Source: Candidatus Brevefilum sp.
GTDB lineage: Bacteria; Chloroflexota; Anaerolineae; Anaerolineales; Anaerolineaceae
Length of the DNA stretch: 64,000 nt
NCBI GenBank assembly: GCA_029210815.1
Contig: JARGGB010000001.1
Location: 1-64,000 of the forward strand
Direction of reading: 5' to 3'
A program made the translations under genes and the position numbers. Shown piece after piece: positions 10,792-57,131 of the stretch (positions within the stretch are counted from its first letter, which is position 1; every line of letters begins with the position of its first letter). The notes under the pieces are model-generated. The model made no database searches and had not been told where the DNA came from. It saw nothing but the letters and a program-made list of their open reading frames with translations.

Positions 10792-10797
10792 CGTCAA

Positions 10798-34800: not shown

Positions 34801-37314
34801 GCACTTGAAAAAGCGGTTGAGAGATCCACAGCCTTCAGTCCCATTAGGGTTCTCGATTTATCTGCTGCTTATACTTTGGTAGATCAAGAAAAGAAAGCGC
34901 TTGATCTATTCAACCAAAATCAGGATTACCATGAGATTTATCCTCAAATTTCTTTGATGAAATCAGACATCCTGACACATTTAGGACAATATCAATCAGC
35001 CTTCAACGCACTCAAATCCATTGAAGATTCGGTAATGGAAGGGCTTCGCAATAATGATGAAATCAACAAAGACACCTCCCCTCTCCTTTACACTTATGAT
35101 TTCAAAATTTCTGGCTATCTCTACCGAATGGGTCAATTGAATCTCGCTTTAGGTGATTTCCATTCAGCATTAGCCTACCTGGCTCAAGCAGCTGAAATTA
35201 AACCAGAGGATGAACAAATAAGCCAAACAATCTTCGAAACCCAGCTACAACTGTTCAATTTTGATGAAATACAAAAAGCAAGCTTCGAAAACCAAAACGA
35301 AGCTATCAAATCCGATTCATTAGGAGTGAACCAGCTGGACATCATATGCTCAAAGGCTGAAATCCTTGGCCTTCAAGGGCAAATGGAAGATGCAGCAGCC
35401 TTGATCAATGGTTTGTCTTCATCAAATCGAAACTATCCTCGATATTTAGCTGTTCAAAGTCAACTTGCAAGCTACCGTGGAGATGTAGACCTCGCGAAAG
35501 ATTACTTTGATGATGCTGTTATTTCTTATAAGAACACATTGGAGGGAATGCAATCTAAATCACTGCCAATCCTCCTAAGAAAAATAAGAAATTTGATCAG
35601 CATTGCAGATGCTGCTTTTGCCCAGGATGACTATATCACTGCAATTCAAACCCATCAACAGGCTTGGCAGGATCTCGACAATCAACCCTTTAATAACTGG
35701 CGTTTTGCACAATGCTTGATAAAATCCGCTGAAAATCAGCAAATTGCAAGATCCCTGATGATCACAAATCACTCTCCTGGAGAGTCAGTCCTTTCAAAAG
35801 ACTACGAAAATATTACCCGGGAAATTGTCAACAGCTTGCAGAAGCACTTGCCAGAAGAAACCTTTGTCTGCAGTCAGGCGAGAATGACTGCTGCTTTCTC
35901 AGGTGAATGGCCAATGGGATTGAGCGCCGATGTCTGTTTGAACGCTCCGGAGACTGCCGCTTCTGTCCTGATATTTACTCAAGATGGTAATCTTGCTGAC
36001 AAAATTGCAGATATTTATCCAAACAATGCGAATGTACTCCAGGCATATGCTATCTATGCTCTGAAAACCAAAAAACGTAATGGGCATCGATTTGCAGCCA
36101 GGGTGCTTGAATTTGACACATCCAATCCAGCCAATCACGCATTGTTGGCAATGCTCAATAAGGACCAACCAGAACAAGCATTGAAATCTATTGAAACTGC
36201 TTTGTCATTCTGGCCTGACGAGTCAAAATGGCACGCTTTTGCTGCTGAATTGTACAAACAAATCGAAAAACATGACCTGGCATCCAAACATATTTCTGAA
36301 GCAATAAAAATCCAGCCTGAAAATGCTGACTTTTGGCGAAAAAGTGCGGAAATAAACCTGCAAATGAACAACTTAAGACATGCAAAATATGATTTGGAGC
36401 GAAGTGCCGCCTTAACTGAAAAGGACACTGAAATCTGGGTCAGCATGGCAGATGTCAATCGTCGATTAGGGTTCGTACAGGAAGCGACGCACAATATTGA
36501 AACCGCTTCGAAACTAAACCCCAAGGACAGAACTATTGCCTTTAAGGAAGCAAAATTCCTGTTCGATACCAAACAATATGAGCAGGCTGAAATAAAGTCC
36601 GAAGAAATCCTTAACACCGAGACCAACAACATTGACGCATTTATCATCCTTGCTCAATCACAGGCTAAACAAGGCAAATTCACACAAGCAATCGCGACGA
36701 TAAACAAAGCAGAGAACCAGAACCCTGGGAATGTTGAAATTGCATTGGAGACTATCAAAATCAAAAAGGACTATGAGGGCATTGAAACTGTATTACCGCA
36801 GCTTGTTGAGCTTGCACAAAAGGAGCCTGAGAATCCCGCTGTCCTTACAACTTTGACGGATTGGCTCATCCAAACAAACAGGCTCAAGCAAGCAAAAGAA
36901 ACTGCCCAAATGGTTTTGAAAATCATGCCCCATCAAGCTGAAGTTCACCTGATGCTGGGTCGATTACAACGTCTTGATGGGCAGCTTGATCAGGCAATCG
37001 CACAATTTTCAGAAGCAATCACCCTAGAGCCAAACAAAGTGGATGCGTACATAGAATTAGGAAAAACTTATCAGGATCGCCGTGACCTTGAAAAAGCCAT
37101 TGAAATTTATCAGAAGGGTTCACTGGCAGATGCATCAGACCCACGACCCTATTATCATGCAGGGATGGCACTCAAAGAACGGAAAGATTATCCCGGTGCA
37201 GAAGCAATGCTTAAACAGGCGAAGAAATATGCACCGGATGACCCAAATATTGTTCGCCAGCTTGGCATGGTTACTGCACTAAACCTGATAAATAATTTAC
37301 GAGAGGCAAGTTAA
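31900..37314 (+). CDS. Giant TPR-repeat protein, 1804 residues
   Basis: AGGAG precedes the ATG. Residues 1-330 are helical but not obviously TPR and match nothing I recognise. From about 330 to the end the sequence is a near-continuous array of 34-residue TPR-like repeats; well-formed examples are AETWLTLARLW-type helices near 595-700 and the terminal AYIELGKTYQDRRDLEKAIE with YYHAGMALKERKDYPGAEAM. No signal peptide, membrane helix or enzymatic motif. It is likely a cytoplasmic scaffold or sensor superhelix. The next gene, a caspase-like protease with its own TPR-like N-terminus, starts two bases after the stop. Confidence 0.9.
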   Translation: MPLEGLLDLIRTQFSPEQRQMIVSSLQQDSLVWQFAQDEGTSLPYFQSKVSDIVSFSPGRISLWLIGNATGHDLENLDNLDNQIPEEIYQRSSQSLETLSNTGLPPADLTSAGLLALSVRESRRTKGHWQGIAGELFGKSKIVDIQKFFQIWRTPFACLFSYSPDFNDLILDFLNSEKEFLAKAIVPLSIHAYLANPIKSENRLDQIFQLYVNRSQDLQLDSLKWLEIFHRFDLRKILAKSYLETKKNIDFSAGVYAEIEAFKALNQETDPLEKQIRYSLPEDLNRLAAYYYYSGDQQRSSETYQLSSDLLKFLESQTLFQSINSQKGQTSPTSWMGLMASLPNSKTIKHFYVKTLIELGNLDEAEEKLDFLSDSDEKHILKTKIEQNKNDEVRIDTNQVNIKQKENSGFPSYYVHNAQFDKVGYLLQMLEAQKDNQAIIKFADDILKNQFQNLDIVKKIRDVYEKSQLFDKALTLTSYLELREPENKDNQRALARLYSKNNRWEDTFATSQSFIKSTPTPAVEDLEIFAESAIKTNRVDIAISVCQNILKKDSHNTKALILLGESFMHKGDIIKAIQHMENVVEMIPEEPETWLTLARLWAHNGQKDRSFEILNKGVLALPNEPKLLRAYGKALLDRKAPAEALPHLEKAHEIDLEDLQGSLVLANAQHQLGHFDAAWRLLAPFETTYPQYPAVSKLLGKVMLDMGREKSAEPILIFAAEQYPEDIDIVLTAARLIINKFENSFEETPEENLVRVNEILNKALEISPSQIVLKLHLADIERLSGNIQTALDQYKALSDEISSEKSSLNWRLNYGIGKTSIALGEFDMGLAALQDAGSEQPENLLIIHGLVEAYQAADLQSKGRDLANTALRLAPQDITNILWFANFKTKNNEPEEAVNALREALRINPDKHQLKLWLAKIHLSIGDHEEAKQILSDLTNLENTSPEDLHQAAYTCVRMNELALAVEALEKAVERSTAFSPIRVLDLSAAYTLVDQEKKALDLFNQNQDYHEIYPQISLMKSDILTHLGQYQSAFNALKSIEDSVMEGLRNNDEINKDTSPLLYTYDFKISGYLYRMGQLNLALGDFHSALAYLAQAAEIKPEDEQISQTIFETQLQLFNFDEIQKASFENQNEAIKSDSLGVNQLDIICSKAEILGLQGQMEDAAALINGLSSSNRNYPRYLAVQSQLASYRGDVDLAKDYFDDAVISYKNTLEGMQSKSLPILLRKIRNLISIADAAFAQDDYITAIQTHQQAWQDLDNQPFNNWRFAQCLIKSAENQQIARSLMITNHSPGESVLSKDYENITREIVNSLQKHLPEETFVCSQARMTAAFSGEWPMGLSADVCLNAPETAASVLIFTQDGNLADKIADIYPNNANVLQAYAIYALKTKKRNGHRFAARVLEFDTSNPANHALLAMLNKDQPEQALKSIETALSFWPDESKWHAFAAELYKQIEKHDLASKHISEAIKIQPENADFWRKSAEINLQMNNLRHAKYDLERSAALTEKDTEIWVSMADVNRRLGFVQEATHNIETASKLNPKDRTIAFKEAKFLFDTKQYEQAEIKSEEILNTETNNIDAFIILAQSQAKQGKFTQAIATINKAENQNPGNVEIALETIKIKKDYEGIETVLPQLVELAQKEPENPAVLTTLTDWLIQTNRLKQAKETAQMVLKIMPHQAEVHLMLGRLQRLDGQLDQAIAQFSEAITLEPNKVDAYIELGKTYQDRRDLEKAIEIYQKGSLADASDPRPYYHAGMALKERKDYPGAEAMLKQAKKYAPDDPNIVRQLGMVTALNLINNLREAS

Positions 37315-37316
37315 CA

Positions 37317-39956
37317 ATGACAGACGCCAACAATCAACTGGACTATCTACGAGCAATTGATCGCTATCGTTTTCTGACCATCCTCAATGCCGCAGACCAC
37401 TGTGAGGAATATCAGTTTGCCAAACAGGCAACAATGTTATGGCTCGCCAATTTCCCCGGTGATTTGTATGTAAAATATTACCAGGCAAAAACATTCATAA
37501 AAACTGGTAAAAACGATCAGGGAAGATTGCTGTATGAAAATCTGATAGAACTGGACCCATTGTTCGTCGAACCTGTAAAAGATATGAGTGAATTGACCGC
37601 CAAAAAAGACCTTCAAAGTCGGTACCGATCAATTTATCAGTATCTTGTAAAAAATAAGGCATCCAATCAAACTCAGGAAGCCTGGCTGTCACCGCTGTGG
37701 GAAGCTCGATCGAAGTTTGAGCAAGGGGATTTCTCAAATGCAATGCAATATGTACATCAATCGCTCCTCAAAGCACCACAATCACCCATCCCAGCAGTAT
37801 TGCATTTGCAAATTGCCAATAACCTGGAAAACCAGGAAATGGTCAGCAACCTGAGCGAAATTTATTATGACGCCTGGCCAAAGTGTTTGCAAATCAATGT
37901 GGTAAAAGCAATTTCTGAAATTGAGCAAGGATTGGAAGCCAGGGCTGTAGAGCGCTTGCATTGGGTTGAATCTCAGGATAACGCAGGTCAGGTGATAACG
38001 AGAATGTTGGGGAATAATCACCAATTTAAGGACATGTGGCCTGAATACTTACAAGCTCATTTCGACCTGCCAATACCTGCCTCTGTCAGTGCGTATCTGG
38101 GATGGAATCAACTCAATCCTGGTTCTTTCAATTTTCCGACATTTTCTCAAAGCCCATTTTTCAGACGTGTAACCCACACACCGTCAATCAGTGAAACACA
38201 TGAAATCAGGGTGGCACAAGCATCAACCAGGTCTGTTAAAAATATGCCTGCATCTCACGCTGATGACAGTTCAAAACAAAAAGTAAAAAAAGGTGCAAAT
38301 AGCAAAGATATTGAAAAAGTCCAAACAGCTTTTGCAAAGATCGCCAAGCGATTAAAGAAGCTTGACTTAGAACGAACGGACACCCGCTTCCCAGTATATG
38401 TCATTTTATCTTCGAGAAAACAACTGGAGAAAATATACGGACCAAATACCGCGGATGTCATTGATAAACTTCTCCAAGAACTAATGGGGCATATCCAGGG
38501 ACTGCCGGATTGGGATGCAAAAATTTACTATCCAGATGATTCAGCCTCAATGGCAAGGTTAGGGCTCAAGCCCTTCATTGCTAATGACCCATGGCAGGTA
38601 AAATTAGCCCTTGCGGACCTCGATGATCATCTTGAAAAGCAAGGGGAAATGATCGGCGCGCTACTGATCGTTGGCGGTCCTGAAATCGTACCCTTCCATC
38701 ACCTGCCAAATCCCACAAGCGATAATGATTTAGATGTGCCTTCAGATAACCCATATGGAACAATTGATGAAAATTACTTCATCCCGCAATGGCCTGTTGG
38801 GCGTCTCCCCGGTGAAACTGGCTCAGACGCAGGTTTGTTACTCTCGCAGATCAGAGGTTTGATCTATCAATACAAGCAAAAATCAAAGAAATCCAAATCA
38901 AGTGTGCAGAAATTCGCCTCAATTTTCACATGGATCCTGGATCTCTTCTCCAATTGGAATAGGAATGTTAACTCGAACCAGAGTCTTGGTTACTCTGCAG
39001 AAATATGGAAGGAAGCATCTGCTGAGGTTTACAAGACTGCTGGGCAGGGAAAAGAACTGCAGCTTTCACCACCCATTCATTCTGGTTCACTTGCCCTCAA
39101 CAACAGCCTTGGGCACAAAATCGGTTATTTCAATCTTCACGGCATCAAAGACGGCGCAAACTGGTACGGACAAAAAGACTTCTCATCTCAATCCTCCGGA
39201 CCAGATTATCCAATTGCCTTGAGCCCAAACATGTTCAGTGAAAAAATCCGTTCGCCTAAGCTTGTTTTTACTGAGGCATGTTACGGTGCAAATGTTTTAG
39301 AAAAACGACATGAAGAGGCGATGTCTTTGAAATTCCTTGACACCGGCACCAAATCCTTTGTTGGCTCAACCTGCATCGCTTATGGGTCAGTCATGCCGCC
39401 ATTAATTGCGGCAGATTACTTAGCAAATGCTTTTTGGAAACAAGTCCTCGATGGACAGCCTGCCGGCTATGCTTTGATGCAAGCCAAGTTAAACCTTGTA
39501 GAAGAAATGACAAAAACACAGGGCTTCCTGGATGGTGAAGACCAGAAAACGATCTTATCATTCATTCTTTATGGCGATCCCCTGGCAGTTCACGATGGAA
39601 TCAGCACGTTACCAAAACCTTTACTAAGGGAAAAAATGCATCCTGAAATAAAAACAATAAGCGACTCAGATTTAGTGCCTGAAAATAATGAAAACGATAT
39701 GCCTAATAACGTCAGCAAACAGGTAAAGAAAATTGTTGAAAGTTATCTGCCAGGCTTGGAAAATGCACAAATGAAGATGAACAAATCCTATCAGGAATTC
39801 AATACAAAGAAAGTGGGCAGATCAAACGACGCACAAAGGTATGTTGTCACACTGCAGAAATCCTTTGATCTTAACCTCGATGCAGAGCATCATCATTATG
39901 CACGTATGACCTTCAATGAAAAAGGTAAATTAGTAAAATTCACAACATCTCGGTAA
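37317..39956 (+). CDS. TPR-linked C25/caspase-like (clan CD) cysteine protease
   Basis: 879 residues. The N-terminal 230 are TPR-like helices; 300-345 is a charged linker. From about 360 the sequence follows the C25 (gingipain-like) pattern: ALLIVGGPEIVPFHHLP, SDNPYGTIDENY, VGRLPGETGSD, then the catalytic His608 in YFNLHGI and Cys655 in TEACYGAN, 47 residues apart as in clan CD. GSTCIAYG and FILYGDPLAVHD follow as in C25. It lacks a secretion signal, so it should act in the cytoplasm. The C-terminal 120 residues are an extra domain. Pairing with a giant TPR protein recalls TPR-CHAT and caspase-type immune or signalling proteases, but the target is unknown. Confidence 0.85.
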   Translation: MTDANNQLDYLRAIDRYRFLTILNAADHCEEYQFAKQATMLWLANFPGDLYVKYYQAKTFIKTGKNDQGRLLYENLIELDPLFVEPVKDMSELTAKKDLQSRYRSIYQYLVKNKASNQTQEAWLSPLWEARSKFEQGDFSNAMQYVHQSLLKAPQSPIPAVLHLQIANNLENQEMVSNLSEIYYDAWPKCLQINVVKAISEIEQGLEARAVERLHWVESQDNAGQVITRMLGNNHQFKDMWPEYLQAHFDLPIPASVSAYLGWNQLNPGSFNFPTFSQSPFFRRVTHTPSISETHEIRVAQASTRSVKNMPASHADDSSKQKVKKGANSKDIEKVQTAFAKIAKRLKKLDLERTDTRFPVYVILSSRKQLEKIYGPNTADVIDKLLQELMGHIQGLPDWDAKIYYPDDSASMARLGLKPFIANDPWQVKLALADLDDHLEKQGEMIGALLIVGGPEIVPFHHLPNPTSDNDLDVPSDNPYGTIDENYFIPQWPVGRLPGETGSDAGLLLSQIRGLIYQYKQKSKKSKSSVQKFASIFTWILDLFSNWNRNVNSNQSLGYSAEIWKEASAEVYKTAGQGKELQLSPPIHSGSLALNNSLGHKIGYFNLHGIKDGANWYGQKDFSSQSSGPDYPIALSPNMFSEKIRSPKLVFTEACYGANVLEKRHEEAMSLKFLDTGTKSFVGSTCIAYGSVMPPLIAADYLANAFWKQVLDGQPAGYALMQAKLNLVEEMTKTQGFLDGEDQKTILSFILYGDPLAVHDGISTLPKPLLREKMHPEIKTISDSDLVPENNENDMPNNVSKQVKKIVESYLPGLENAQMKMNKSYQEFNTKKVGRSNDAQRYVVTLQKSFDLNLDAEHHHYARMTFNEKGKLVKFTTSR

Positions 39957-40132: not shown

Positions 40133-40159
40133 ATCAAAAAGCGAATAATTTGTTGTAGT

Positions 40160-40322
40160 ATCTTCGAGTCTGCCTGCCTAAAGCGCTGCAATGGCAATCA
40201 GACCGATAGGGTAAGAATGGAAACTTTCTTGCCTCCCGTGTTTGGAAAGGAGATTAACACAACAACACGATAAAGTTAAGATCGTTTTGTTTTGTGCGCT
40301 CCTTTTCTGGAAGGAGCTTTTT
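40160..40322 (+). promoter_or_regulatory. Structured leader with terminator/antiterminator, class not recognised
   Basis: Stems visible: GTCTGCC with GGC and CAGAC (about 40169-40203); GGGTAAGAA with TTCTTGCC (40209-40233); GTGTT with AACAC (40239-40260); and AACAACACGAT with ATCGTTTTGTT (10 of 11 pairs). The final hairpin GCTCCTT (40298-40304)/AAGGAGC (40311-40317) plus a T run is an intrinsic terminator that also holds the Shine-Dalgarno. An upstream AAAGGAG (40246-40252) can pair with the same CTCCTTT, giving a clear switch between two folds. It lacks the conserved cores of the TPP, cobalamin, FMN and glycine classes. Ligand unknown. Confidence 0.6.
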
Positions 40323-40324: not shown

Positions 40325-41704
40325 TTGACAATACAAAAGGAAAATAATAAATCCTTATATTTTTCAACTCACGATTTATTAATTATGGCAGTTTTAGCTG
40401 CGCTTGGGGGTGTCACCGGCACTTACATCAACGCGCTTGGTGATCTTGTACAGGCTGCCCTTGGTTTTCCGGGCGGGACACAGTGGGCAGCTGGCTTTCA
40501 TGTCCTGTGGATTGTGATTGCGTATGGGATCGTTCAAAAACCAGGAACCGGCATTGTCATGGGCTTGTTAAAAGGTGCGGTTGAGCTTCTGAGTGGAAAC
40601 AGCCATGGAATCATTATCTTATTGGTCGATTTGGTTGCTGGAATTTTAGTTGATTTCGGATTTCTCTTGTTTCGCAATAAAAGATCCCTTCTTGCCTATA
40701 TCCTCGCAGGTGGATTGGCTACCGGGTCCAATGTTCTGGTTTTTCAAATTTTTGCAACCATCCCTTTGAACATTCTTGGTTTGAGTGCAATTGCGATATT
40801 GTTTGTACTGGCTACCATTTCAGGTATCGTGTTTGCGAGCTTTCTGCCCTATTGGTTGATCAATGTACTCACAAATGCTGGCGTTGTTAAATTACCTGTA
40901 CAAAGAGAAAAGAAGCAAAAGTTGGGCTGGATCATCCTGTTAAGCACGTTGATTTTTGCTTTTGTCTTTACATTTGTATTGGTTGGAAAATTGAAAGGCG
41001 CAGAAACTATCAAAATTTCTGGCGCAGTAGAAAGCACCTTAGCGTTTCCAAACAACGAGCTTAATATCAAAAAAGTCACTCGACAAATGGAGTATCGCGG
41101 CGTCCTCACTTCATACGAAGGCTTCCCATTAAGTAAGATTATAAATTATGCGGAACCCTATAAAGACATGAATACCGTCCTGCTTGAAGCCTCAGATGGT
41201 TACGCCTTCATGATTAGCGCTGATGAACTAAATGAAAATGAAAATATTCTTCTTGTTCAACAAGGACGTGGACAAAACGCTTCCTTCGATATCGTTGGAC
41301 CTGAAAGCAGTAAAGCCTGGGTTCGGAACCTGATAGAAATTCGCTTGATTGCTGCCAAAGGACTTGAAGTCAATAATTTTCAGGGTGAGAAATATTTATT
41401 TGAAGCTAAAAACTGGATATCTGAGATGGACAGCACACAAATAGCTCTTCCAGAAGGATCTCAAAAACTGCAAGGTGTGCCTATGTGGAAAGTCATTGAA
41501 GCTTCAGAAACAAGAAGTAACATCTCTCAAGTCATTTTTAAATCAGAGGAAGGTCAAGACCTCACGCTTGATTGGGAAACAATCAATCAAAATAACGACA
41601 TTCGTTTATTCATTTTGATTGAGGATGAAGGTATCAGTTACGTTCTTGCTGAAATGTCCGGTGATGTTCTTGTTTACCCAATATCAAGCATAGAAATTAA
41701 TTAA
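40325..41704 (+). CDS. ECF transporter S component fused to SUOX-like extracellular domains
   Basis: 459 residues from TTG 40325, preceded by GGAAGGAG. Residues 10-220 form about six helices resembling YkoE-type ECF substrate-binding membrane proteins (LAALGGVTGTYINALGDLVQ, GLLKGAVELLSGNSHGI). After a further helix, residues about 235-459 hold two domains resembling the sulfite-oxidase/molybdopterin-binding fold (KISGAVESTLAFPNNELNIK, YRGVLTSYEGFPLSKII, ASDGYAFMISADEL; then LQGVPMWKVIEA). The transporter subunit probably sits with the ATPase and EcfT encoded next. Substrate: an unidentified vitamin or cofactor. Fusion of these two modules is unusual. Confidence 0.82.
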   Translation: MTIQKENNKSLYFSTHDLLIMAVLAALGGVTGTYINALGDLVQAALGFPGGTQWAAGFHVLWIVIAYGIVQKPGTGIVMGLLKGAVELLSGNSHGIIILLVDLVAGILVDFGFLLFRNKRSLLAYILAGGLATGSNVLVFQIFATIPLNILGLSAIAILFVLATISGIVFASFLPYWLINVLTNAGVVKLPVQREKKQKLGWIILLSTLIFAFVFTFVLVGKLKGAETIKISGAVESTLAFPNNELNIKKVTRQMEYRGVLTSYEGFPLSKIINYAEPYKDMNTVLLEASDGYAFMISADELNENENILLVQQGRGQNASFDIVGPESSKAWVRNLIEIRLIAAKGLEVNNFQGEKYLFEAKNWISEMDSTQIALPEGSQKLQGVPMWKVIEASETRSNISQVIFKSEEGQDLTLDWETINQNNDIRLFILIEDEGISYVLAEMSGDVLVYPISSIEIN

Positions 41705-41707
41705 TCG

Positions 41708-43207
41708 ATGAGCTGGGTCGAAGTAAAGCAATTTTCCTATTCATATCCCGGTGAGAACACACCCGTCTTTCGTGATTTGAATTTTGTAATCAATCGCGGC
41801 GATTTTGTAGTGATCACAGGTAAGTCAGGTTGTGGAAAATCCACCTTCGGTAAAGCCCTTGCAGGTTTCTTATTTCAGGATGATACAGCTAATTATTCAG
41901 GAAAAATAATTATCAATAGCGAAGATATGACCCAACTGCCCCTTTATGAAGCCAGCAGAAAAGTTGGGTACGTTCAGCAAAATCCTGAAGATCAATTTTG
42001 CACACTCAATGTTGACGATGAAATTGCCTTTGGTCTTGAAAACTTGTGTGTTGCGCCAGATGAAATCGAAGACCGAATAAATCAATCACTGATGATTGTT
42101 AAAGGCATAGAACTAAGGGGTCGCGACTTAGCTACGCTATCTGGTGGAGAAAAGCAAAAGGTAGCGATTGCATCCATGCTTGCCCTATCTCCTGAACTTT
42201 TGATCCTCGATGAACCGACATCGAATTTAGATCCCATTGCCACCCGGAATATATTCCAAACCCTTCACAACTTACGGGAGTCTATGGGTTTGACATTAAT
42301 CATTTTTGAGCATAAATTATCTCAACTGCTTGATTTAGATCCAAAATTTTTTGTACTTGACCAGGGTGAAATTAAACCCCTAGGAAATAATCAATACCAA
42401 TCTAAATCTGTAAACAGGATAAATCTTTCGTTTCCTGGAAAGACTTCTCTTCATAATGATCATAAAAACATCATGATCAAAGTTGAGAATCTTAATGTGG
42501 CAATTCAGAACAAAATCATTCTTCAGGAAATTAATTTCGCAATTGTTCCCGGCGAGTTTATTGCATTAATGGGACCAAACGGCAGTGGTAAAAGTACTTT
42601 ATTACAATCATTGGTTGGTTTTCACCCGCCAAGCAGTGGAAACATTCGTTGCTTCGACCAGGCATCCCCTAATATAAAAACATCCAGTCTTGTTATGGAT
42701 CTTGGATTTATATTCCAAAATCCTGATCATCAATTGTTTACGCAATCTGTTGTGGATGAAGTGATATTCACTTCAGAAAACCTTAAGATTCTCAACGATG
42801 AAATGGCTAATCTTGCCCAAAAATGGCTTGATCAAATTGAATTATTGGACCGAGTGGATGATCACCCACAGCGTCTCAGTTATGGTGAAAAACGACGTCT
42901 GAATCTTATCGCTGCAATGCTTCACAATCCAAAGCTTCTGATTATCGATGAATTATTGATTGGTCAGGATATGGCGAATGCATTAATGTGGATGAAGATA
43001 TTACATGACTATACGAAGCTCGGAAATTCAGTCCTGCTGGTAAACCATCACCCCGAACTTACTAAAGAATTTTGCAGTCGCTTGATATTCCTTTATGAGG
43101 GAAGAATGTTACTTGATCAGCCTGTAGACTTAGCATTTGAAACGTTAAGAACGGCTGGTTTTGAGCCCTTTGTACCCGGCAAGAGAGTGAGTGAAATTGA
43201 TGCATAA
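41708..43207 (+). CDS. ECF transporter ATPase, two fused ATP-binding domains
   Basis: 499 residues comprising two ABC ATPase domains: the first with Walker A GKSGCGKST, signature LSGGEKQKV and LILDEPTSNLD; the second with GPNGSGKST, LSYGEKRRL and LLIIDELLIG. This is the duplicated EcfA arrangement that powers ECF uptake systems. It lies three bases after the S-component gene and overlaps the EcfT gene. Confidence 0.95.
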   Translation: MSWVEVKQFSYSYPGENTPVFRDLNFVINRGDFVVITGKSGCGKSTFGKALAGFLFQDDTANYSGKIIINSEDMTQLPLYEASRKVGYVQQNPEDQFCTLNVDDEIAFGLENLCVAPDEIEDRINQSLMIVKGIELRGRDLATLSGGEKQKVAIASMLALSPELLILDEPTSNLDPIATRNIFQTLHNLRESMGLTLIIFEHKLSQLLDLDPKFFVLDQGEIKPLGNNQYQSKSVNRINLSFPGKTSLHNDHKNIMIKVENLNVAIQNKIILQEINFAIVPGEFIALMGPNGSGKSTLLQSLVGFHPPSSGNIRCFDQASPNIKTSSLVMDLGFIFQNPDHQLFTQSVVDEVIFTSENLKILNDEMANLAQKWLDQIELLDRVDDHPQRLSYGEKRRLNLIAAMLHNPKLLIIDELLIGQDMANALMWMKILHDYTKLGNSVLLVNHHPELTKEFCSRLIFLYEGRMLLDQPVDLAFETLRTAGFEPFVPGKRVSEIDA

Positions 43208-43976
43208 ACTCAGCTACTCACCTGGCAGCAGCCTTATGCATCGCCTCTATCCATTGACAAAATTTGCCTGGCTGCTGCTCACGACAATTTTTGCCTTCAT
43301 CGTTAACCGTGCAGAGCTGCTCGCCATCACTGCTTTATTTAGTCTTGTCATGCTATTATTGGTCAAGCCCGATATCTCAAAGGTGAGAGGTTTTCGACTG
43401 GTATTAGCAACAGGACTCACTCTCTTTGCTCTTTATATTCTTTTTGATAAACAAGGAAAAACTCTTTTGGATCCTGGCATCGGTCTTTTGCGGGTTACAT
43501 CGAGCGGATTTAATCTGGGCTTACTCATAAGCAGTCGATTTTTGTTGATTATTTTTAGCAGTTACCTCTTTATCTTGACCACAAAACCCAATGACATTGC
43601 TTATGCTCTGATGAAAATTGGTTTGCCATACCGATATGGATTTATGCTGGTGACCGCATTAAGATTGGCACCCATCCTCGAAGAAGAGGGGCAAACCATT
43701 TATAAGGCACAACTTTTGCGTGGTGTGCGTTATGACCAGGGAAGCGTTTTCAAAATCCTGAATCTCATCAAACAATTCTTGACACCCCTGCTGATAAGCG
43801 CCCTTCGTCGGACGGACAAGCTGGTTTTCAGTATGGAAGGTAGAGGTTTTGGAAGGCAAACTGGACGAACATTTCACAGAAGCCCAAAAGCAACTCAACT
43901 TGATTTATTTATCAGCCTGATTCTGATAGTTTACTTTGCCAGTTTATTATTTTTGAATTATTGGAGAGCCCTATGA
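43200..43976 (+). CDS. ECF transporter transmembrane protein EcfT
   Basis: 258 residues from ATG 43200; GTG 43191 is alternative. Five to six membrane helices, with the coupling-helix region carrying the ALRLAPILEEEGQTIYKAQL segment and ISALRRTDKLVFSMEGRGFG, typical of EcfT/CbiQ proteins. It joins the fused ATPase to the S component. The stop overlaps the next ATG (ATGA). Confidence 0.93.
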   Translation: MHKLSYSPGSSLMHRLYPLTKFAWLLLTTIFAFIVNRAELLAITALFSLVMLLLVKPDISKVRGFRLVLATGLTLFALYILFDKQGKTLLDPGIGLLRVTSSGFNLGLLISSRFLLIIFSSYLFILTTKPNDIAYALMKIGLPYRYGFMLVTALRLAPILEEEGQTIYKAQLLRGVRYDQGSVFKILNLIKQFLTPLLISALRRTDKLVFSMEGRGFGRQTGRTFHRSPKATQLDLFISLILIVYFASLLFLNYWRAL

Positions 43977-44893
43977 AGAAGCACCAATCAAAACCGATTA
44001 CGATTTTTCTCATTGTCTTTACCATTGTGCTGCTTGGTGTGATCATTGCACTTGTCATCACTACAAAACCAATGCCAGTTTCTTTACTGCAAGAATATGG
44101 CTTGGGTTTGCTCTGGGAAGAGGGTTTGGCGATGAACGAATGTGCAGAATGCCATGATTCAGTGGATTTCCACTCCTGCGTAACCTGTCATGACGATCAT
44201 GGGGCTGTTGAACTAACAAATATCCCTTTTTCTGAGATCGTCGAATTAACAGGGGACGTCCCAGATCCAAGCTTTGTAAAGATCCATCAGGTAATTCCAG
44301 ATCAAGAAAATTTAGGAACCCATATCACATTACTCAATTTCTTAGAAATTCACGGTGTCCAGGAGTTTGAAACTGTGACATTCACAACTAATGACGGCGG
44401 ATTAACCACAATTGAATACCAATATCTCGATGAAACGGCGATGTTAGTTCCTTATATTGATGGCGTTCGTTTCATAACAGAAACCATTCATAATTCAACT
44501 TGGCTGAAAGGCATCAACCGGATCACGATTGTTGGGAAAGACAGACCCCTCACGATTGATGGTGAATCGACTTCGATTGGAAGATTGTTATTAGGCGATA
44601 CAATGCGGTTAACGGTCGAAGGATCAAATGTCATGCTTTCCGATGAGACTGGGAACCTGAGCCGTGCTATGGTTGCAAACTGGGTAGAAGGGCCTCGACT
44701 TTTGGACCTATTAAGAACTAAATCTCCAGATGGAATTTTAATTACAGGTGTGAATGGTGATGTCACAGAATTGACAGCTGATGAAATTCAAAATGCAATC
44801 ATTGCAATTGTGAAAGATGAGGTTACCCTCGTTTTACCAGATCGAGGAAGAAGTGCCTGGCCAACTCAAATTGTAGAAATAGAGTCATATTAG
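43973..44893 (+). CDS. Membrane-anchored two-haem c-type protein with SUOX-like domains
   Basis: 306 residues from ATG 43973, seven bases after GGAG. An N-terminal membrane helix (8-31) is followed by two CXXCH haem-c sites, CAECH (57-61) and CVTCH (69-73). The remaining 230 residues contain two segments resembling the SUOX-like domains of the S component (FTTNDGGLTTIEY region; GPRLLDLLRTKSPDGILITG). It would face outside. A haem protein inside a vitamin-uptake operon is odd and suggests redox handling of the ligand or of the cofactor. Confidence 0.8.
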   Translation: MKKHQSKPITIFLIVFTIVLLGVIIALVITTKPMPVSLLQEYGLGLLWEEGLAMNECAECHDSVDFHSCVTCHDDHGAVELTNIPFSEIVELTGDVPDPSFVKIHQVIPDQENLGTHITLLNFLEIHGVQEFETVTFTTNDGGLTTIEYQYLDETAMLVPYIDGVRFITETIHNSTWLKGINRITIVGKDRPLTIDGESTSIGRLLLGDTMRLTVEGSNVMLSDETGNLSRAMVANWVEGPRLLDLLRTKSPDGILITGVNGDVTELTADEIQNAIIAIVKDEVTLVLPDRGRSAWPTQIVEIESY

Positions 44894-44895
44894 AA

Positions 44896-46026
44896 ATGTT
44901 AAAAAACAAAACCAAAATTATTCTATTGCTGTTCTTTGTTTTCTTTCTTTCTTCCTGTGGACCTGCCTGGGAAATTAATGTCATTGAAGATGGACGCAAT
45001 ACTGGCGTAATCAATCAAGAAAGTTTCGAATTCTACGACGATAATTACAAGGATGAGACCAGTGAAATCCCCCTGGGTCAAACGCTATATGACATAGGCT
45101 ACACGCTCATCGATGAAATCACATTCAAATCGGAAAGCGACTCAAGCGTGACATATGTTTGGGACGAAATGGGCGAGACAGCTGTAATTCAGGGATCCGG
45201 TGAGATCACACTGGAAGATGGCACAAAGATATCAGCGGATCAAATTGAAATTGAAACACCTTCAATTTCCAGTTATTACTCCATTATGGATATTGCGCCG
45301 ACCATCGCCTACGCCTTTAATTTGCCAGAATTACCGGATACCAAAGGCCAGGTCCGTTTGACCGAATCAGGCGTATGGGATCATGCTGTTATGATTTTCC
45401 TGGATGGCCTTAATTACGACATCCTCACATCATTAATTGATACAGGGAAATTACCTTTTTTTAAACAATTAAACGGGATTCAACAGGGAATAACAGTATT
45501 TCCACCCATTACAACATCCTCATCAGCAGCGCTTCTAACCGGTACACCGCCAAAAGAGAATGGCGTTTATGGTTATGGGTACCGCACAACCACAACTACA
45601 ACGCTTTTCGACCTTTTTGCAGAACAAGGTAAATCGGTAACTGCCGTAGAAGGACACAGCCTGGCTTTCAATTTGAGAAATGCGGAGACAATTTTGAGCG
45701 GTGATCGGGATGAAAATGGCTTCACGAATGACAATGTCTTTGAAAACAGCCTTGAAGTCATCCGCTCGAATATGCCAGATTTGCTTTATATCCATTTTCA
45801 TGACATCGATGAAATGGGGCATCAATACGGACCTTTTTCTTCAGAATACGAAACAGCCATCATCCAGGTCGACAGCTATTTGGAAGAGATTTTTACAAGG
45901 CTGCCAGAAGACACCCTGATCACAATCTTTGGTGACCATGGCATGCACAAAACAGAAGACGGCGGAAACCATGGCACCTTAACAGCCGCCGATCTAATTA
46001 TTCCCATCATTTTTATCGAAAAGTAA
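44896..46026 (+). CDS. Lipoprotein phosphodiesterase/nucleotide pyrophosphatase-like
   Basis: 376 residues. The lipobox LSSC places the lipidated Cys at 21. Residues about 25-125 may be another SUOX-like domain (weak). From about 165 it is alkaline phosphatase superfamily: metal Asp in VMIFLDGLNYD, likely nucleophile in PPITTSSSAALL, HDIDEMGHQYG, FGDHGMHK and a final GNHGT His. Enzymes of this type split phosphodiester or pyrophosphate bonds of nucleotides and cofactors, so it may trim a phosphorylated or nucleotide-linked precursor before ECF uptake. Confidence 0.85.
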   Translation: MLKNKTKIILLLFFVFFLSSCGPAWEINVIEDGRNTGVINQESFEFYDDNYKDETSEIPLGQTLYDIGYTLIDEITFKSESDSSVTYVWDEMGETAVIQGSGEITLEDGTKISADQIEIETPSISSYYSIMDIAPTIAYAFNLPELPDTKGQVRLTESGVWDHAVMIFLDGLNYDILTSLIDTGKLPFFKQLNGIQQGITVFPPITTSSSAALLTGTPPKENGVYGYGYRTTTTTTLFDLFAEQGKSVTAVEGHSLAFNLRNAETILSGDRDENGFTNDNVFENSLEVIRSNMPDLLYIHFHDIDEMGHQYGPFSSEYETAIIQVDSYLEEIFTRLPEDTLITIFGDHGMHKTEDGGNHGTLTAADLIIPIIFIEK

Positions 46027-46036
46027 AGGAGTTGAT

Positions 46037-46531
46037 ATGGTTAAAGTCAAGCAACAAAAAGTAAATATTCCAAAATGGGTATTACTGATATGCATTTCCA
46101 TGCTGCTCACCGCCTGCGGTGGAACGCCTAAAGTTGAATGGGAGCTCTCCATTTCAGGCGATGTGAACAATCCAACAACATTTTCATTCGCCCAGTTGGC
46201 CGAAATGGAACTGGTTGATTTGAATGAAGTGCTCATGGAAAAATCACGGGGAGAAGACGAAGTCCGTTCTTTTAGCGGTGTTCCCCTTGCCTTACTTTTA
46301 GAAAAAGTTGGTGCCCCGGATGATATCAGCACAATTACCGCAATCGCAGCCGACGGTTACGCTATTGAAATCAGCAAAGACGAAATGGTCGATGGCATTG
46401 TCGCCCTCAAACAATCCGGCGAATGGATTGTCGATGCTGATCCAGACGCTGGTCCCATTCGATTGGTTTTCCCAACAACACCAGCCAATCGTTGGGTTTT
46501 TCAAATAAACGAGATTATTGTCAACAAATAA
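46037..46531 (+). CDS. Lipoprotein with SUOX-like (molybdopterin-binding-fold) domain
   Basis: 164 residues; lipobox LLTAC gives Cys27. The mature domain has WELSISGDVNNPTTFSFAQL, RSFSGVPLALLLEKVGAP and AADGYAIEISKDEM, the pattern of the sulfite-oxidase middle domain, without the Cys that ligates Mo in true enzymes. Probably an extracellular binding protein for the adjacent ECF transporter. AAAGGAG precedes the start. Confidence 0.82.
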   Translation: MVKVKQQKVNIPKWVLLICISMLLTACGGTPKVEWELSISGDVNNPTTFSFAQLAEMELVDLNEVLMEKSRGEDEVRSFSGVPLALLLEKVGAPDDISTITAIAADGYAIEISKDEMVDGIVALKQSGEWIVDADPDAGPIRLVFPTTPANRWVFQINEIIVNK

Positions 46532-46559
46532 CAACAATCAATATCAAGAAAGGACCATC

Positions 46560-46982
46560 ATGAAAAAATCAATCTTATTCACAAGTCTGTTTATTCTAAT
46601 TACCTTACTCGCTGCATGCAGTCAAACGCCAGAAGCAGTGGTAACGGAAACCGCCGTCCTGACAGTAGGATCAGAAGAATTTTCGCTGTCAGAATTAGAA
46701 GCTTATGAGACGGTGTCCGCCGACTATACTAACAAGGATGGTGAAACATCTACCTTCGAAGGTGTTGCGCTCACTGACATTTTGCAGGACGCCAACCTCA
46801 TCGATGGAGATACCCTCGTCTTTACAGCTTCAGACGGCTATGAAGCAGAATTGCCGCTTGAAGAAGCCTTGAGCTGTGCAAATTGTATTGTTGCCTTCGA
46901 TGACGACATTCTACGCATGGTTATGCCTGATATGTCAAGCAAACTTCAGGTCAAAGATGTCATAAAAATCAGCGTGAAATAG
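46560..46982 (+). CDS. Second SUOX-like lipoprotein
   Basis: 140 residues from ATG 46560 (AAAGGA just upstream; the upstream GTG-like start at 46518 would spoil the signal peptide). Lipobox LAAC, Cys20. The mature part resembles the preceding protein: FEGVALTDILQDANL and ASDGYEAELPLEEAL. It has two Cys (CANC) near residue 110. A paralogous binding protein is likely. Confidence 0.82.
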   Translation: MKKSILFTSLFILITLLAACSQTPEAVVTETAVLTVGSEEFSLSELEAYETVSADYTNKDGETSTFEGVALTDILQDANLIDGDTLVFTASDGYEAELPLEEALSCANCIVAFDDDILRMVMPDMSSKLQVKDVIKISVK

Positions 46983-47041: not shown

Positions 47042-47482
47042 ATGCCAATCATCACACCTTCAAGGCGCTGGCAGCAGGCTTATTATCCCTTTAAAAAACG
47101 CAGTCTGCCTGAAAAAATTGAAGAAAACATTGAAAGAACTGTCAAAGGTGTTTTATGGGGATGCCGGATGTGCGGGAATTGCCTGCTCCAGGAAACGGCT
47201 TTCATTTGTCCCATGGCATGTCCCAAAGGGCTGCGTAATGGACCTTGCGGCGGTTCATCACCGGACCATTGCTGCGTCGATGAATCTCGACCCTGTATTT
47301 GGTATGAAATCTATCGAAGAGCAGAAAACATGGGTCGACTTGACAAACTACTTGAAGTGCTGCCGCCGTTGGACTGGGACAAAACCGGCACATCTGCATT
47401 AAGAGATGTTTACGAAAAGGCACATGAAATTGGATTATTAAAAATTGTGTCCAAGACAACGCATTCGTCCTCTGAAGAATGA
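47042..47482 (+). CDS. metV: MetV-type iron-sulfur partner of methylene-THF reductase
   Basis: 146 residues with a dense Cys cluster (C41, C44, C47, C56, C60, C69, C77, C78, C85; CRMCGNCLLQ, CPMACPKGLRNGPCGG), the pattern of MetV and MTHFR C-terminal domains of acetogens. It binds FeS/zinc and teams with MetF to reduce methylene-THF. No Shine-Dalgarno is seen, since the hairpin ends eight bases upstream. metF follows 24 bases later. Confidence 0.9.
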   Translation: MPIITPSRRWQQAYYPFKKRSLPEKIEENIERTVKGVLWGCRMCGNCLLQETAFICPMACPKGLRNGPCGGSSPDHCCVDESRPCIWYEIYRRAENMGRLDKLLEVLPPLDWDKTGTSALRDVYEKAHEIGLLKIVSKTTHSSSEE

Positions 47483-47506
47483 AAGCGGGGTTGGGATCGT
47501 TTCTTC

Positions 47507-48472
47507 ATGGAGATCCGTCAACCGGCTTGGTGGGATGGGGATTCACAATACCACCCCGCACCACACCATGAACCCGTTTCGAAATTTGAGAAAAAGCTTA
47601 CTGAAGGCAGTTTTGTAGTCACCTGCGAACTCGTCCCCCCCTTATCCAGTGACTATGCATCTCTAAAGAATAAAATCACAAAACTAACAAACATTGTTGA
47701 TGCAATTAATATTACAGACAGTGCTTCAGCAATACCACGTTTATCACCAATGACGTGCGCCATCGAAATGCTCGAATTAGGCATTGAGCCAATACTGCAA
47801 ATGGCAGCCAGGGACCGAACACGACTCAGCCTTCAATCCGACCTGATTGGTGCTTCCGCTTCTGGTATTCGCAATATCCTGCTAATTACCGGCGACCATC
47901 CTAACAAAGGTAAAAAACCTTTCAGTAAAATGGATATCTGGGATTATGACAGCATCCAGGCAGCATGGATTGCAAGAAAATTGAGAGATGAACAAATCTA
48001 TTTAGATGGTCGAAAGGTTTCCAATCCACCAAGCTACTTTATTGGTTCAGCCGCATCGCCTAATGCATCGGAGCCGAGGTACCAGGCGATCCGCATGGAG
48101 AAAAAGATCAATGCTGGTACACAATTTTTCCAAACAAATTTAATTTTTGACAAAGCAAGATTTGAATCCTACCTGGAAGCACTTGATAAGCGTAATCTCT
48201 TGGGCAAAATGCACCTCATTGCTGGTATAACAGCCATTCGAAGTATTAACGCCGCCAAGTTCATGAACGATTTGCCAGGGATCGAAGTGCCTGATAAAAT
48301 TATTAAGCGACTCTTGAGTGCAAAAGACATCAAAAAAGAAGGCTATCTGATTTGTTTGGAGTTGATTGGAAAAATTAGATCCCTCCCTGGCATTCAGGGT
48401 ATCCACTTCATGGCAATTGATGATCCTGAAAGCATTAAGAGTTTGATTGTCGACAGCCATTTGAAAAATTAA
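47507..48472 (+). CDS. metF: Methylenetetrahydrofolate reductase
   Basis: 321 residues. The barrel pattern of MetF is visible: TCELVPPLSSDYASL, INITDSASAIPRLSPM, ILLITGDHPNKGK, YFIGSAASPNA, FFQTNLIFD and HLIAGITAIRS. It would make methyl-THF in methionine synthesis or a Wood-Ljungdahl methyl branch; FAD/FMN use is family knowledge. Pairing with MetV suggests the ferredoxin/NADH-linked acetogen type rather than the E. coli type. Confidence 0.93.
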   Translation: MEIRQPAWWDGDSQYHPAPHHEPVSKFEKKLTEGSFVVTCELVPPLSSDYASLKNKITKLTNIVDAINITDSASAIPRLSPMTCAIEMLELGIEPILQMAARDRTRLSLQSDLIGASASGIRNILLITGDHPNKGKKPFSKMDIWDYDSIQAAWIARKLRDEQIYLDGRKVSNPPSYFIGSAASPNASEPRYQAIRMEKKINAGTQFFQTNLIFDKARFESYLEALDKRNLLGKMHLIAGITAIRSINAAKFMNDLPGIEVPDKIIKRLLSAKDIKKEGYLICLELIGKIRSLPGIQGIHFMAIDDPESIKSLIVDSHLKN

Positions 48473-48796: not shown

Positions 48797-48810
48797 GATT
48801 AATAAATAAA

Positions 48811-48973
48811 TAAGCCATAAAGGGTGCACCTCCTGCCCGGATGCAAGGTGCACAATGGGGGAAGCTGGTGAAAGTCCAGCACTGTCCCGCAACGGTAACA
48901 CCATTGGTGAAGTCCGATAACCCGCCCTTTATGACCCAAAACACTTCGTGGAAAGGCAGTTTGGGTATCGGAT
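48811..48973 (+). promoter_or_regulatory. Cobalamin (B12) riboswitch
   Basis: P1 is CATAAAGGG (48816-48824) with CCCTTTATG (48925-48933). The conserved core GCTGGTGAAAGTCCAGCACT (48864-48883) followed by GTCCCGCAACGG and then AGTCCGATAACCCGCC (48911-48926) is diagnostic. Downstream GGGTATCGGA (48964-48973) can pair with TCCGATAACCC of the aptamer, an alternative fold. A terminator at 49027-49055 completes the switch. Expected: B12 binding reduces expression. Confidence 0.95.
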
Positions 48974-49026
48974 TTTATTAAATAGTTCCGACCTCATCCT
49001 GTCGCCCAACCTGGGCGTTATGATTT

Positions 49027-49055
49027 AACGACCTTTTCACGAAAAGGTCGTTTTT
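49027..49055 (+). terminator. Intrinsic terminator of the cobalamin riboswitch
   Basis: CGACCTTTT (49029-49037) pairs with AAAAGGTCG (49042-49050), then TTTTT. It lies between aptamer and the first gene. Confidence 0.9.
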
Positions 49056-49076
49056 AATTAGAAAAGGATTTGCGCT

Positions 49077-51563
49077 GTGACAAAAACCATTCTTAAAACT
49101 GTTTTCATAATTTTTACTGCAGTTACTTTATTGACCGCCACCGTGCCTGGTGTGGTTGCTAATCCCACACAAAAGCATTCTCACCAGGAAAATCTACAAA
49201 CGCACATTGAAAGGGCATTTACTTACCTCGAAACCCAAATCAATCAAGATGGCGGCCTTCGTTGGATCGAAGAAACATCAAGCGTCCCCGCCACAATTCG
49301 CACAATTTTAGCACTGGCCGCAAATCATTACCCACAGGACTATCTAAAATCCCCTTCAGGAAAGCTGCCCATTGATTTCCTGTCGATTTCCATTTACGAC
49401 TGGGTCAACCAGTCTGACAGTGAATCACATGCTTTTAATGTCGCAAGAGCCGGCCAACTCCTTACTGCAATTGCTGCTGCGAATAAAAATCCGAGGCATT
49501 TTGGTCAGGATCCTGTTGATTTTATTTACGAAATCAACAGCCGCTACGATTCAACGACGGGTGTTTATGGTGATGCAGCAGGAGAAAACGTGACGGATCA
49601 GGTTTGGGCAATCCTGGGATTGGCCGCCAATAATGCTTCAATTCCAACGGATGCCATTGATTGGCTTGTCCGTGCTCAAAATGAGGACGGCAGCTGGAAC
49701 GATGGGTTTGGCGGTTTCCTTGATATGACACCTTTAGCAGTTATGGCATTAACCGCATCTGACCATGACAACGCAAACCTACCTGACATTCAAAATGCGA
49801 TCGGTTTTCTAAAAAACAATCAACAAAACAATGGCGGATGGCAAACACAATGGGATTCGACCACCAATGCCAACACGACAGGTTTGATCCTTCAGGCAAT
49901 AAGCGCAGTAGGTGATAATCCTCTGGATGAAACCTGGCTAAAAGATGGTGCTGATCCCTTCCAAGCACTTCTCGCATTGCAAAAAGAAGATGGAATGATT
50001 GGCGGTGAGTATGGAAACGCATATTCAACAGCCGAAGCTTTGCTTGGTCTGTCAGGGCAACCGCTTTATGCTTTAGGCTATGTCAAACGAGCAAACCATG
50101 CATTTGATTACATCATTGAAAGCCAGGGACCAGATGGCGGTTGGGAAACCATTGGGCAAACCATTGATGTCATTTTGGCTTTACGAGCCGCCGGATGGGA
50201 TCCGAATACCATAACCAAAAACGAAAAAAGCCCTTCGGATTACATTGCCAATAACCTGGAATCTTATCTTGAAAATGGTCCGGATGCACTTGGGAAGCTC
50301 AACCTTGGTTTGGTCGCAAGCGGCAAAAATCCAAGGATGTTTGCTGGCAAGAACCCAATAGCAATGCTCCTGGAGACGTATGATCCAAATTTAAATGCCT
50401 TTGGTGATGCTAACAACACCTGGCACCAGGCAATGGCTATCCTTGGGCTTGCTGCAGCAGGTGAAGTAATTCCAGATGGTGCAGTTGATACTTTGAATTC
50501 ACTTCAAACGGAAAACGGCGGCTGGGAATATGCCGCAGGCACTGGCATCTGGTCTGATAATACTGCCTTGGCAATCCAGGCATTATTGGCAGCAAATGTC
50601 AGCAAGGAGGACCCAAGTATCAAGATGGGATTAACTTACATCACCGAAATGCAATTAGAGGATGGCAGTTGGGGTGATACAAGCACAACAGCCTTCGTCT
50701 TGATGGCACTTAATGCCCTGGATGAATCTAGTTCTGAATGGAAAACCGAGAATAACCTGAGCCCATTGCCAAGTTTACTTTCCTATCAGAAACCAAACGG
50801 CGCTTTCGTTTACTCATGGGACTACCCGGACGATAATTTGATGGCGACAACAGCATCTTTGCTGGCTCTGTTTGATGGAAGTTACCTGGTAACGCCTCCT
50901 GAAACAAAGCCCTATACTGCTTTGATTATCGACCCAAATCAACAGGGAGAAATCATAACCAAATGCATCCCCCTAAATGAAGACACCACTTCTGGAATGA
51001 CGCTTTTAGATTCCTCTGGATTGACCGTGGATTCGGAAGGTGGATTTATTAACGCTATTGAAGGATTCAAAAATCCTAAAAATGGTACCCTGTACTGGTC
51101 TTACTGGTATTGGGATGGAAGAGAATGGCAGTTTTATGAAACCGGTGCAGCTCAAACAGAAGTTGTTCCTGGCAGCATCCAGGCATGGTTCCTGACGAGT
51201 TGGGAACAATTCCCATCCAAACCGCCCACATACGGTACAAACTTAAGTGAAATTTGCGGAACAGATGTATTAAAAAATTATCAAGCCCAAACCTATCTTA
51301 ACTACGGAGATCTCTTTAAATCTCAAGAAGGTAATTTTATTCAACAAGGTACACCACAATCACCACAAATTAATGAACTCTCTTCAACTGAGAGCTTTGT
51401 GACAGAAACGCCAGATTTGATGGGAGAACATACACAAAATGAGGTGAAGCTTGAGGATGAAGAAGCAGAGCAATTTAATACCCTCCCTCTTGTAATCCTT
51501 GCAGCCTTCGGAATTCTCCTGGCAGCTTTCCTTTATTTCAAGTACATCCGAAAGACGTCATGA
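49077..51563 (+). CDS. Transcobalamin/intrinsic-factor-like surface protein
   Basis: 828 residues, GTG start after AAAAGG. Signal peptide 1-29. Residues about 40-600 are alpha/alpha-barrel repeats of the prenyltransferase/terpene-cyclase type (NEDGSWNDGFGGFLD, NNGGWQTQWD, GPDGGWETIG, ENGGWEYAAGTG, EDGSWGDTST). Residues about 610-730 match the DUF4430/transcobalamin beta domain (SGMTLLDSSGLTV, AIEGFKNPKNGTLYWSYWYW, VVPGSIQAWFLTSW). An acidic spacer leads to a membrane helix (802-822) and short basic tail. Animal intrinsic factor and transcobalamin have the same two-domain plan and bind B12 between the domains. With the B12 riboswitch and the ECF transporter next to it, it is probably a surface B12 or corrinoid capture protein. 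Confidence 0.85.
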   Translation: MTKTILKTVFIIFTAVTLLTATVPGVVANPTQKHSHQENLQTHIERAFTYLETQINQDGGLRWIEETSSVPATIRTILALAANHYPQDYLKSPSGKLPIDFLSISIYDWVNQSDSESHAFNVARAGQLLTAIAAANKNPRHFGQDPVDFIYEINSRYDSTTGVYGDAAGENVTDQVWAILGLAANNASIPTDAIDWLVRAQNEDGSWNDGFGGFLDMTPLAVMALTASDHDNANLPDIQNAIGFLKNNQQNNGGWQTQWDSTTNANTTGLILQAISAVGDNPLDETWLKDGADPFQALLALQKEDGMIGGEYGNAYSTAEALLGLSGQPLYALGYVKRANHAFDYIIESQGPDGGWETIGQTIDVILALRAAGWDPNTITKNEKSPSDYIANNLESYLENGPDALGKLNLGLVASGKNPRMFAGKNPIAMLLETYDPNLNAFGDANNTWHQAMAILGLAAAGEVIPDGAVDTLNSLQTENGGWEYAAGTGIWSDNTALAIQALLAANVSKEDPSIKMGLTYITEMQLEDGSWGDTSTTAFVLMALNALDESSSEWKTENNLSPLPSLLSYQKPNGAFVYSWDYPDDNLMATTASLLALFDGSYLVTPPETKPYTALIIDPNQQGEIITKCIPLNEDTTSGMTLLDSSGLTVDSEGGFINAIEGFKNPKNGTLYWSYWYWDGREWQFYETGAAQTEVVPGSIQAWFLTSWEQFPSKPPTYGTNLSEICGTDVLKNYQAQTYLNYGDLFKSQEGNFIQQGTPQSPQINELSSTESFVTETPDLMGEHTQNEVKLEDEEAEQFNTLPLVILAAFGILLAAFLYFKYIRKTS

Positions 51564-57120: not shown

Positions 57121-57131
57121 GGAGATAAATA

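Follow-up and report, generated by a model that had tools for sequence, protein, structure and literature searches.

The stretch of DNA analysed here (the window) comprises 64,000 nucleotides (nt) of a Candidatus Brevefilum sp. genome (contig JARGGB010000001.1, positions 1 to 64,000), and positions 40325-46982 hold one seven-gene operon encoding an energy-coupling factor (ECF) transporter and several extracytoplasmic proteins. All on the forward strand, the genes encode an S component (40325-41704), a fused A1A2 ECF ATPase (41708-43207; TIGR04520 at 331.7 bits, cut-off 315, with two PF00005 domains), a T component of the CbiQ family (43191-43976; PF02361, 2.8e-31), a membrane-anchored di-haem c protein (43973-44893), a lipoprotein of the nucleotide pyrophosphatase/phosphodiesterase type (44896-46026; PF01663, 3.6e-25, and alignment) and two lipoproteins related to the sulfite oxidase (SUOX) fold, LP1 (46037-46531) and LP2 (46560-46982). 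Proteins were searched against Pfam and NCBIfam and RNA against Rfam, isolated domains were compared by hhalign, and AlphaFold models were matched to the PDB. The presence of a PF09819 S component, a PF02361 T component and two PF00005 domains in one operon identifies an ECF transporter with a dedicated module. The original prediction, made from the DNA letters alone, had placed an ECF operon here, with its genes at the same positions, and this was borne out for all seven genes by the Pfam and NCBIfam searches and by a gene-neighbourhood survey, which found the order kept in 25 orthologous loci on named Chloroflexota contigs wherever the contig was long enough (S-component identity 38-94%). 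Even distant relatives, at about 40% identity, have the genes in this complete order. The closest named relatives of the window are metagenome-assembled genomes (MAGs) of Anaerolineaceae (Anaerolineales, Chloroflexota).

The S component, which starts at a TTG codon (a second open TTG lies at 40292), has an N-terminal membrane domain of the YkoE type (about 40358-40903; PF09819, 7e-20), and in its AlphaFold model (mean predicted local distance difference test score, pLDDT, 83.4) residues 12-193 match YkoE (5EDL) with a Z-score of 21.8. Two extracytoplasmic SUOX-like domains follow, as proposed originally and as placed there by both the model and hhalign: S1 (about 41000-41359; residues ~224-342) matches SUOX enzymes and the pterin-binding protein PruR with Z-scores of 12-14, and S2 (about 41360-41701; residues 345-459) matches PruR (7kom) with a Z-score of 11.9. 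LP1 and LP2 score above the PF00174 cut-off (44.6 and 25.0 bits, respectively), and the LP1 model (mean pLDDT 81.5) has the SUOX fold, with Z-scores of 16.3 to SoxC, 15.3 to SorA and 13.5-14.9 to PruR. In profile-profile comparisons of isolated domains, most pairs among S1, S2, LP1, LP2 and the C-terminal domain of the haem protein match at about 96-99% (LP2 to LP1 at 99%), while unrelated control segments do not exceed about 12%, whether compared with the SUOX domains or among themselves, save for one pair of overlapping segments.

On alignment to Thermus thermophilus sulfite oxidase, LP1 retains the segment G-P-[IVL]-R-[LV]-V, which lies in the half that binds the cofactor, while the molybdenum-ligand Cys (C102) aligns with E68 of LP1, a position that is E, Q, A or N among orthologues; LP1 therefore lacks the Cys metal ligand of a sulfite oxidase-family molybdoenzyme. 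The original statement that no metal-ligating Cys is seen holds for this position, although it overlooked a CxxC motif in LP2, which is invariant in orthologues, lies away from the molybdenum-ligand position, and may bind a metal or a dithiolene or else form a disulphide. A CxxC of the LP2 type is also found in the last domain of lipoproteins with three SUOX domains from a sister genus.

The di-haem protein carries two CxxCH motifs (CAECH and CVTCH) and has no family match of its own in Pfam or NCBIfam, so that its description comes from sequence, orthologue alignment and hhalign. Its C-terminal domain D2 is SUOX-like (hhalign 96-97% to LP1 and LP2), while the first soluble domain D1 shows a weak likeness (30-40%); the protein is accordingly described as having one clear SUOX-like domain and a second, probable one. 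The GEGP diheme family NF041762 was considered and set aside, with LP1 at 33 bits against a cut-off of 300 and the haem protein giving no match at E-values up to 1. The haem protein of three orthologous operons (L087, L089 and L093) has a single CxxCH motif, and the same three have a gene for an HdrD/GlpC-type membrane Fe-S/CCG protein (8942-10867, 9289-11214 and 9929-12040, respectively) after the T-component gene and just ahead of the haem-protein gene, an adjacency that suggests a role in electron transfer. In the phosphodiesterase lipoprotein the full two-metal site (D170, T206, D305, H309, D347, H348 and H359) is invariant in 15 orthologues, and its N-terminal domain matches S2 at 84% by hhalign but LP1 and LP2 at about 2%. 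The claim of domains shared across the operon therefore stood for LP1, LP2, the S component and the haem protein's C-terminal domain and was weak for the first haem-protein domain; the phosphodiesterase, which had been called possibly SUOX-like, stays a possible case.

Upstream of the operon, an Rfam match to the molybdenum cofactor (Moco)/tungsten cofactor (Tuco) riboswitch RF01055 spans 40150-40268 on the forward strand (76.7 bits, gathering score 36 bits, E 8e-17); the aptamer ends 56 nt before the S-component start codon and is the single RF01055 match in the whole window genome. The P3 model positions are deleted in its covariance-model alignment, where it differs from P3-containing relatives, and P3-less RNAs of this family have been proposed to respond to Tuco and tied to the use of the tungsten cofactor (Regulski et al. 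2008, PMC2408646). Between aptamer and start codon lie a terminator-like hairpin (40298-40317) and a T run (40318-40322), predicted from sequence and folding; the 5' arm of the hairpin is complementary to the 3' strand of the aptamer (GGAAAGGAG), and the 3' arm contains a likely ribosome-binding site. The stem is not unusually stable against shuffled sequences (z -0.77), and we predict that the leader is an OFF switch because the aptamer-then-hairpin arrangement is repeated in about 17 of 23 orthologous leaders, not because of the hairpin energy. RF01055 precedes the S component in 22 of the 25 orthologous operons and lacks P3 in 20 of these 22. In L087 the lipoprotein pair is encoded as a unit apart, behind a P3-less RF01055 that belongs to it, which ties the lipoproteins independently to the cofactor. 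A weak second RF01055 match in another genome, G053 (32 bits, below the cut-off, among cell-wall and division genes), was discounted.

The membrane pocket of the S component has changed along with the riboswitch. YkoE binds thiamine through Tyr46, Trp49, Glu77, Gln95 and Asp131 (PMC5037267), and a profile alignment places Ala56, His59, Glu87, Ala105 and Gln141 of the window protein at these positions, so that four of the five are replaced and Glu alone is kept. The replacements are fixed or almost fixed across the 25 orthologous S components. In contrast, plain PF09819 relatives from the same order retain Tyr, Trp, Glu, Gln and Asp and have thiamine pyrophosphate (TPP) riboswitches alongside, while no TPP riboswitch (RF00059) was found by the Rfam scan of the window. 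As pocket residues and riboswitch class differ in the same S components, binding site and riboswitch class change together.

Cofactor biosynthesis was surveyed in 151 genomes drawn from the order, alongside the 25 named operon-bearing genomes of the operon survey. MoaA and MoaC were each present in 116 of the 151 genomes and MoaE in 114, while none of MoaA, MoaC, MoaE or MoeA_N was found in the window genome (G000, 95.9% complete) or in either of the two further genomes from its genus (97%, 9 and 20 contigs; the three together range over 9-99 contigs). The full-length fused S component was found in five of the 151 genomes, from two genera, and all five lack both MoaA and MoaC, compared with 23 of 151 overall. 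In the second genus, the sampled relatives without the operon (G034, G047 and G068) keep MoaA, MoaC and MoaE. MoaC is absent from 18 of 25 operon-bearing genomes against 30 of 146 operon-less ones (Fisher 8e-7), its state changes at least six times on the S-component tree, and MoaE is absent from 25 of 26 operon-bearing genomes.

Despite the missing biosynthesis, each genome of the window genus has one or two aldehyde ferredoxin oxidoreductases (AFOR). In the window genome a genome-wide search returned a single AFOR_N match, a tungstopterin-type enzyme of this family encoded at 55234-57120 on the forward strand (PF01314, 3.9e-102; PF02730, 1.1e-68), which is the probable client of the operon. 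AFOR_N was present in 20 of 21 operon-bearing genomes tested, the sole negative being represented by 1.5 Mb of sequence only. The AFOR-family gene is followed by genes for HdrA/MvhD/FrhB-like Fe-S proteins, and this cluster (55234-63182) resembles electron-bifurcating tungstoenzyme clusters of the class II benzoyl-CoA reductase type and is likely to be the cofactor user.

Judging from the riboswitch, the missing biosynthesis and the fold, we consider it highly probable that the operon imports a ready-made pyranopterin cofactor (tungstopterin, molybdopterin or a metal-loaded form of these) for salvage. The main argument for the cofactor itself is that, with the biosynthesis genes missing, an imported oxyanion would be of no use to the cell. 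The original guess of a pterin cofactor as ligand, offered as speculation, is now strongly supported by three lines that were not available to it: the upstream RF01055, the absent biosynthesis and the lost thiamine pocket. With somewhat less confidence, we regard the system as likely to be the first dedicated importer known for the intact tungsto-/molybdopterin cofactor, belonging to Chloroflexota which no longer synthesise it and depend on what their neighbours release, with the SUOX fold serving as an extracellular cofactor chaperone rather than an enzyme.

Dinucleotide forms of the cofactor, molybdopterin guanine dinucleotide (MGD) and molybdopterin cytosine dinucleotide (MCD), can be converted to plain molybdopterin by nucleotide pyrophosphatases. 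In the relay of capture, trimming, redox change and import that we propose as plausible, LP1, LP2 and, through its SUOX domains, the di-haem protein would bind released cofactor outside the cell, and the pyrophosphatase lipoprotein would cut nucleotide-extended forms (MGD, MCD) to the molybdopterin monophosphate size that SUOX folds bind. The haem protein, as a guess, perhaps keeps the dithiolene or the metal reduced before uptake. S1 and S2 would then pass their ligand on to the pocket of the YkoE-like membrane domain, inward movement would be driven by the T component with the A1A2 ATPase, and the imported cofactor would go to the tungstoenzyme of the aldehyde oxidoreductase type; at high cofactor levels, the riboswitch would permit the hairpin that combines terminator and ribosome-binding site, and the operon would be switched off. 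The imported form in the window genus is probably already metal-loaded, because the genus also lacks the metal insertase MoeA, while G077 and G116, which keep MoeA, could instead take up metal-free molybdopterin.

Several observations weigh against import of the intact cofactor. MoaC is kept in 7 of the 25 operon-bearing genomes, and MoaE is missing even from certain relatives in which MoaA and MoaC are present, so that its loss alone is a weak sign. The loss counts are not independent events, phylogeny having been considered only through the S-component tree, and several MAGs are incomplete. RF01055 is missing before three of the 25 operons (L080, L082 and L083), and more generally Moco riboswitches also govern molybdate/tungstate transporters and cofactor enzymes, so that the switch alone does not name the cargo. 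The site of PruR, a SUOX-fold protein without the Cys, is reported to be too small for Moco (PMC13259868). Finally, the sister genus has RF01055-controlled lipoproteins with three SUOX domains, whose genes are found together with Wtp-/Tup-type tungstate transporters (L099 2500-9003 and L100 4367-7675) and with moaA, moaC and moeA, so that the SUOX lipoprotein may be a wider part of cofactor or tungsten handling. The genomes of L099 and L100 have MoaA, MoaC and MoeA, with no match to MoaE. Two of the operons that lack RF01055, those of L080 and L083, are preceded by a gene for a PadR-type regulator.

In the main rival reading, the cargo of the ECF transporter is an oxyanion (tungstate or molybdate), which the SUOX-like domains would bind or sense. 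The lipoproteins beside the Wtp/Tup-type tungstate transporters speak for it, as does the position of RF01055 before molybdate transporters (PMC2408646), and in the L078 operon TupB-like permease and ATPase genes (9003-10396) are inserted between two LP2-type lipoprotein genes. We nevertheless hold it to be improbable. Metal alone is useless where moaA, moaC, moaE and moeA are missing, as in the window genome and its genus; pterins are the ligands of PruR and of the SUOX fold; the S component has its origin in a transporter of the thiamine/hydroxymethylpyrimidine (HMP) type, that is, of an organic cofactor; and WtpA and TupA, along with MoaC and MoeA, gave no match in the roughly 74% of the same-genus genome G027 that was covered. 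Slightly less probable again is a smaller pterin or folate-type cargo (monapterin, neopterin or folate) that would serve C1 metabolism, a proposal that would suit the PruR-like Cys-less fold, the preference of PruR for tetrahydromonapterin (PMC13259868) and the metF-type genes adjoining the operon at 47042-48472; the riboswitch, however, is of the Moco class and not of the tetrahydrofolate class, methylenetetrahydrofolate reductase (MTHFR) genes lie next to the operon only in L085 among the 25 orthologues, and the distribution of the operon tracks the loss of Moco biosynthesis.

Two further readings are very unlikely. A system for signalling, redox sensing or extracytoplasmic tungstoenzyme maturation, whose ECF part imports something else, would give a place to the di-haem protein and to the Fe-S/CCG membrane protein inserted in three operons, and PruR offers a precedent in signalling (PMC13259868); yet the operon has no kinase or cyclase, SUOX domains form part of the S-component polypeptide itself, and the AFOR client has no recognisable export role. 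An importer of thiamine or HMP with ordinary YkoE specificity and unrelated accessory domains would explain the clear YkoE homology of the membrane domain (E 4e-14), but thiamine was rejected as cargo in view of the class of the riboswitch and the replacement of four of five coordinating residues by other conserved ones, true YkoE-type relatives in the order having both the TPP riboswitch and the residues.

The molybdenum/tungsten cofactor is unstable and is usually regarded as made by each cell for itself. We found no described bacterial importer of Moco or Tuco in the open-access literature searched, where work on "molybdopterin uptake" goes no further than suggesting a possible link to outer-membrane proteins (PMC12282271). 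The parts (ECF transporter, SUOX fold and Moco riboswitch) are known, but to the extent of the literature searched both the way they are combined and the cargo proposed here are new. If import of the ready-made cofactor is true, Moco/Tuco would become one more public good shared between cells, like B12, haem and thiamine, the life of tungstoenzyme-bearing Chloroflexota without moaA and moaC would be accounted for and a handle for culturing them gained, and candidate tools for bringing the cofactor into cells would become available. It would also give a new reading of "sulphite oxidase" genes in Syntrophomonas wolfei, before which Regulski et al. (2008, PMC2408646) left two P3-lacking Moco RNAs as exceptions: genes under such Tuco-type RNAs may encode SUOX-like cofactor-binding proteins.

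Elsewhere in the window, a second ECF operon (48805-54958) lies behind a cobalamin riboswitch (RF00174, 63.9 bits) and comprises genes for an alpha-alpha toroid protein (49077), a PF12822 S component (51560), a T component and a fused ATPase (53333); it very probably imports B12 and includes a capture protein resembling transcobalamin. The space separating it from the first ECF operon holds the MTHFR C-terminal (DUF5981) and MetF-type genes already mentioned (47042-48472), which are present in L085 too and not beside the other orthologous operons. A glycine riboswitch (RF00504, 5019-5113) precedes two genes (5589-8394) that resemble subunits of the glycine decarboxylase P-protein, and 31900-39956 encodes two proteins, the first of 1804 residues and rich in tetratricopeptide repeats, the second of 879 residues and containing what may be a peptidase region of the C25/CHAT type.

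Among known systems, the thiamine/HMP ECF transporter YkoEDC of Bacillus subtilis shares with the window operon the S-component fold, PF09819, a dedicated fused A1A2 ATPase and the T component, whereas the window operon has Tyr46, Trp49, Gln95 and Asp131 replaced, two SUOX domains fused to its S component, a Moco-class riboswitch in place of the TPP one, and additional lipoproteins, haem protein and pyrophosphatase. The sulfite oxidase family (SorA, SoxC, MsrP/YedY and eukaryotic sulfite oxidase) has its fold in common with LP1, but the window domains have neither the Cys ligand nor the dimerisation domain and occur several to an operon. The molybdate/tungstate ABC transporters ModABC, WtpABC and TupABC are also found under Moco/Tuco riboswitches, and in L099 and L100 of the sister genus members of this group have SUOX lipoproteins as neighbours; their cargo is the oxyanion and they work in cells able to make the cofactor, while the window operon has no such binding protein or permease. 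Like LP1, PruR (7KOS, 7RKB, 7KOM and 7KP2) is a single-domain, extracytoplasmic SUOX-fold protein without the molybdenum-ligating Cys, which binds pterins outside the membrane (PMC13259868). PruR pairs with the cyclase/phosphodiesterase DcpA and binds small pterins, whereas the window domains are encoded in an operon for a transporter, which has a Moco-class riboswitch and in which no gene of the DcpA type was found. Use of the ready-made cofactor itself has a counterpart in Caenorhabditis elegans, which takes up and uses dietary Moco by a route across membranes that is stated to be unknown (PMC9793310), and beside which the window operon would represent a bacterial transporter with a proposed mechanism.

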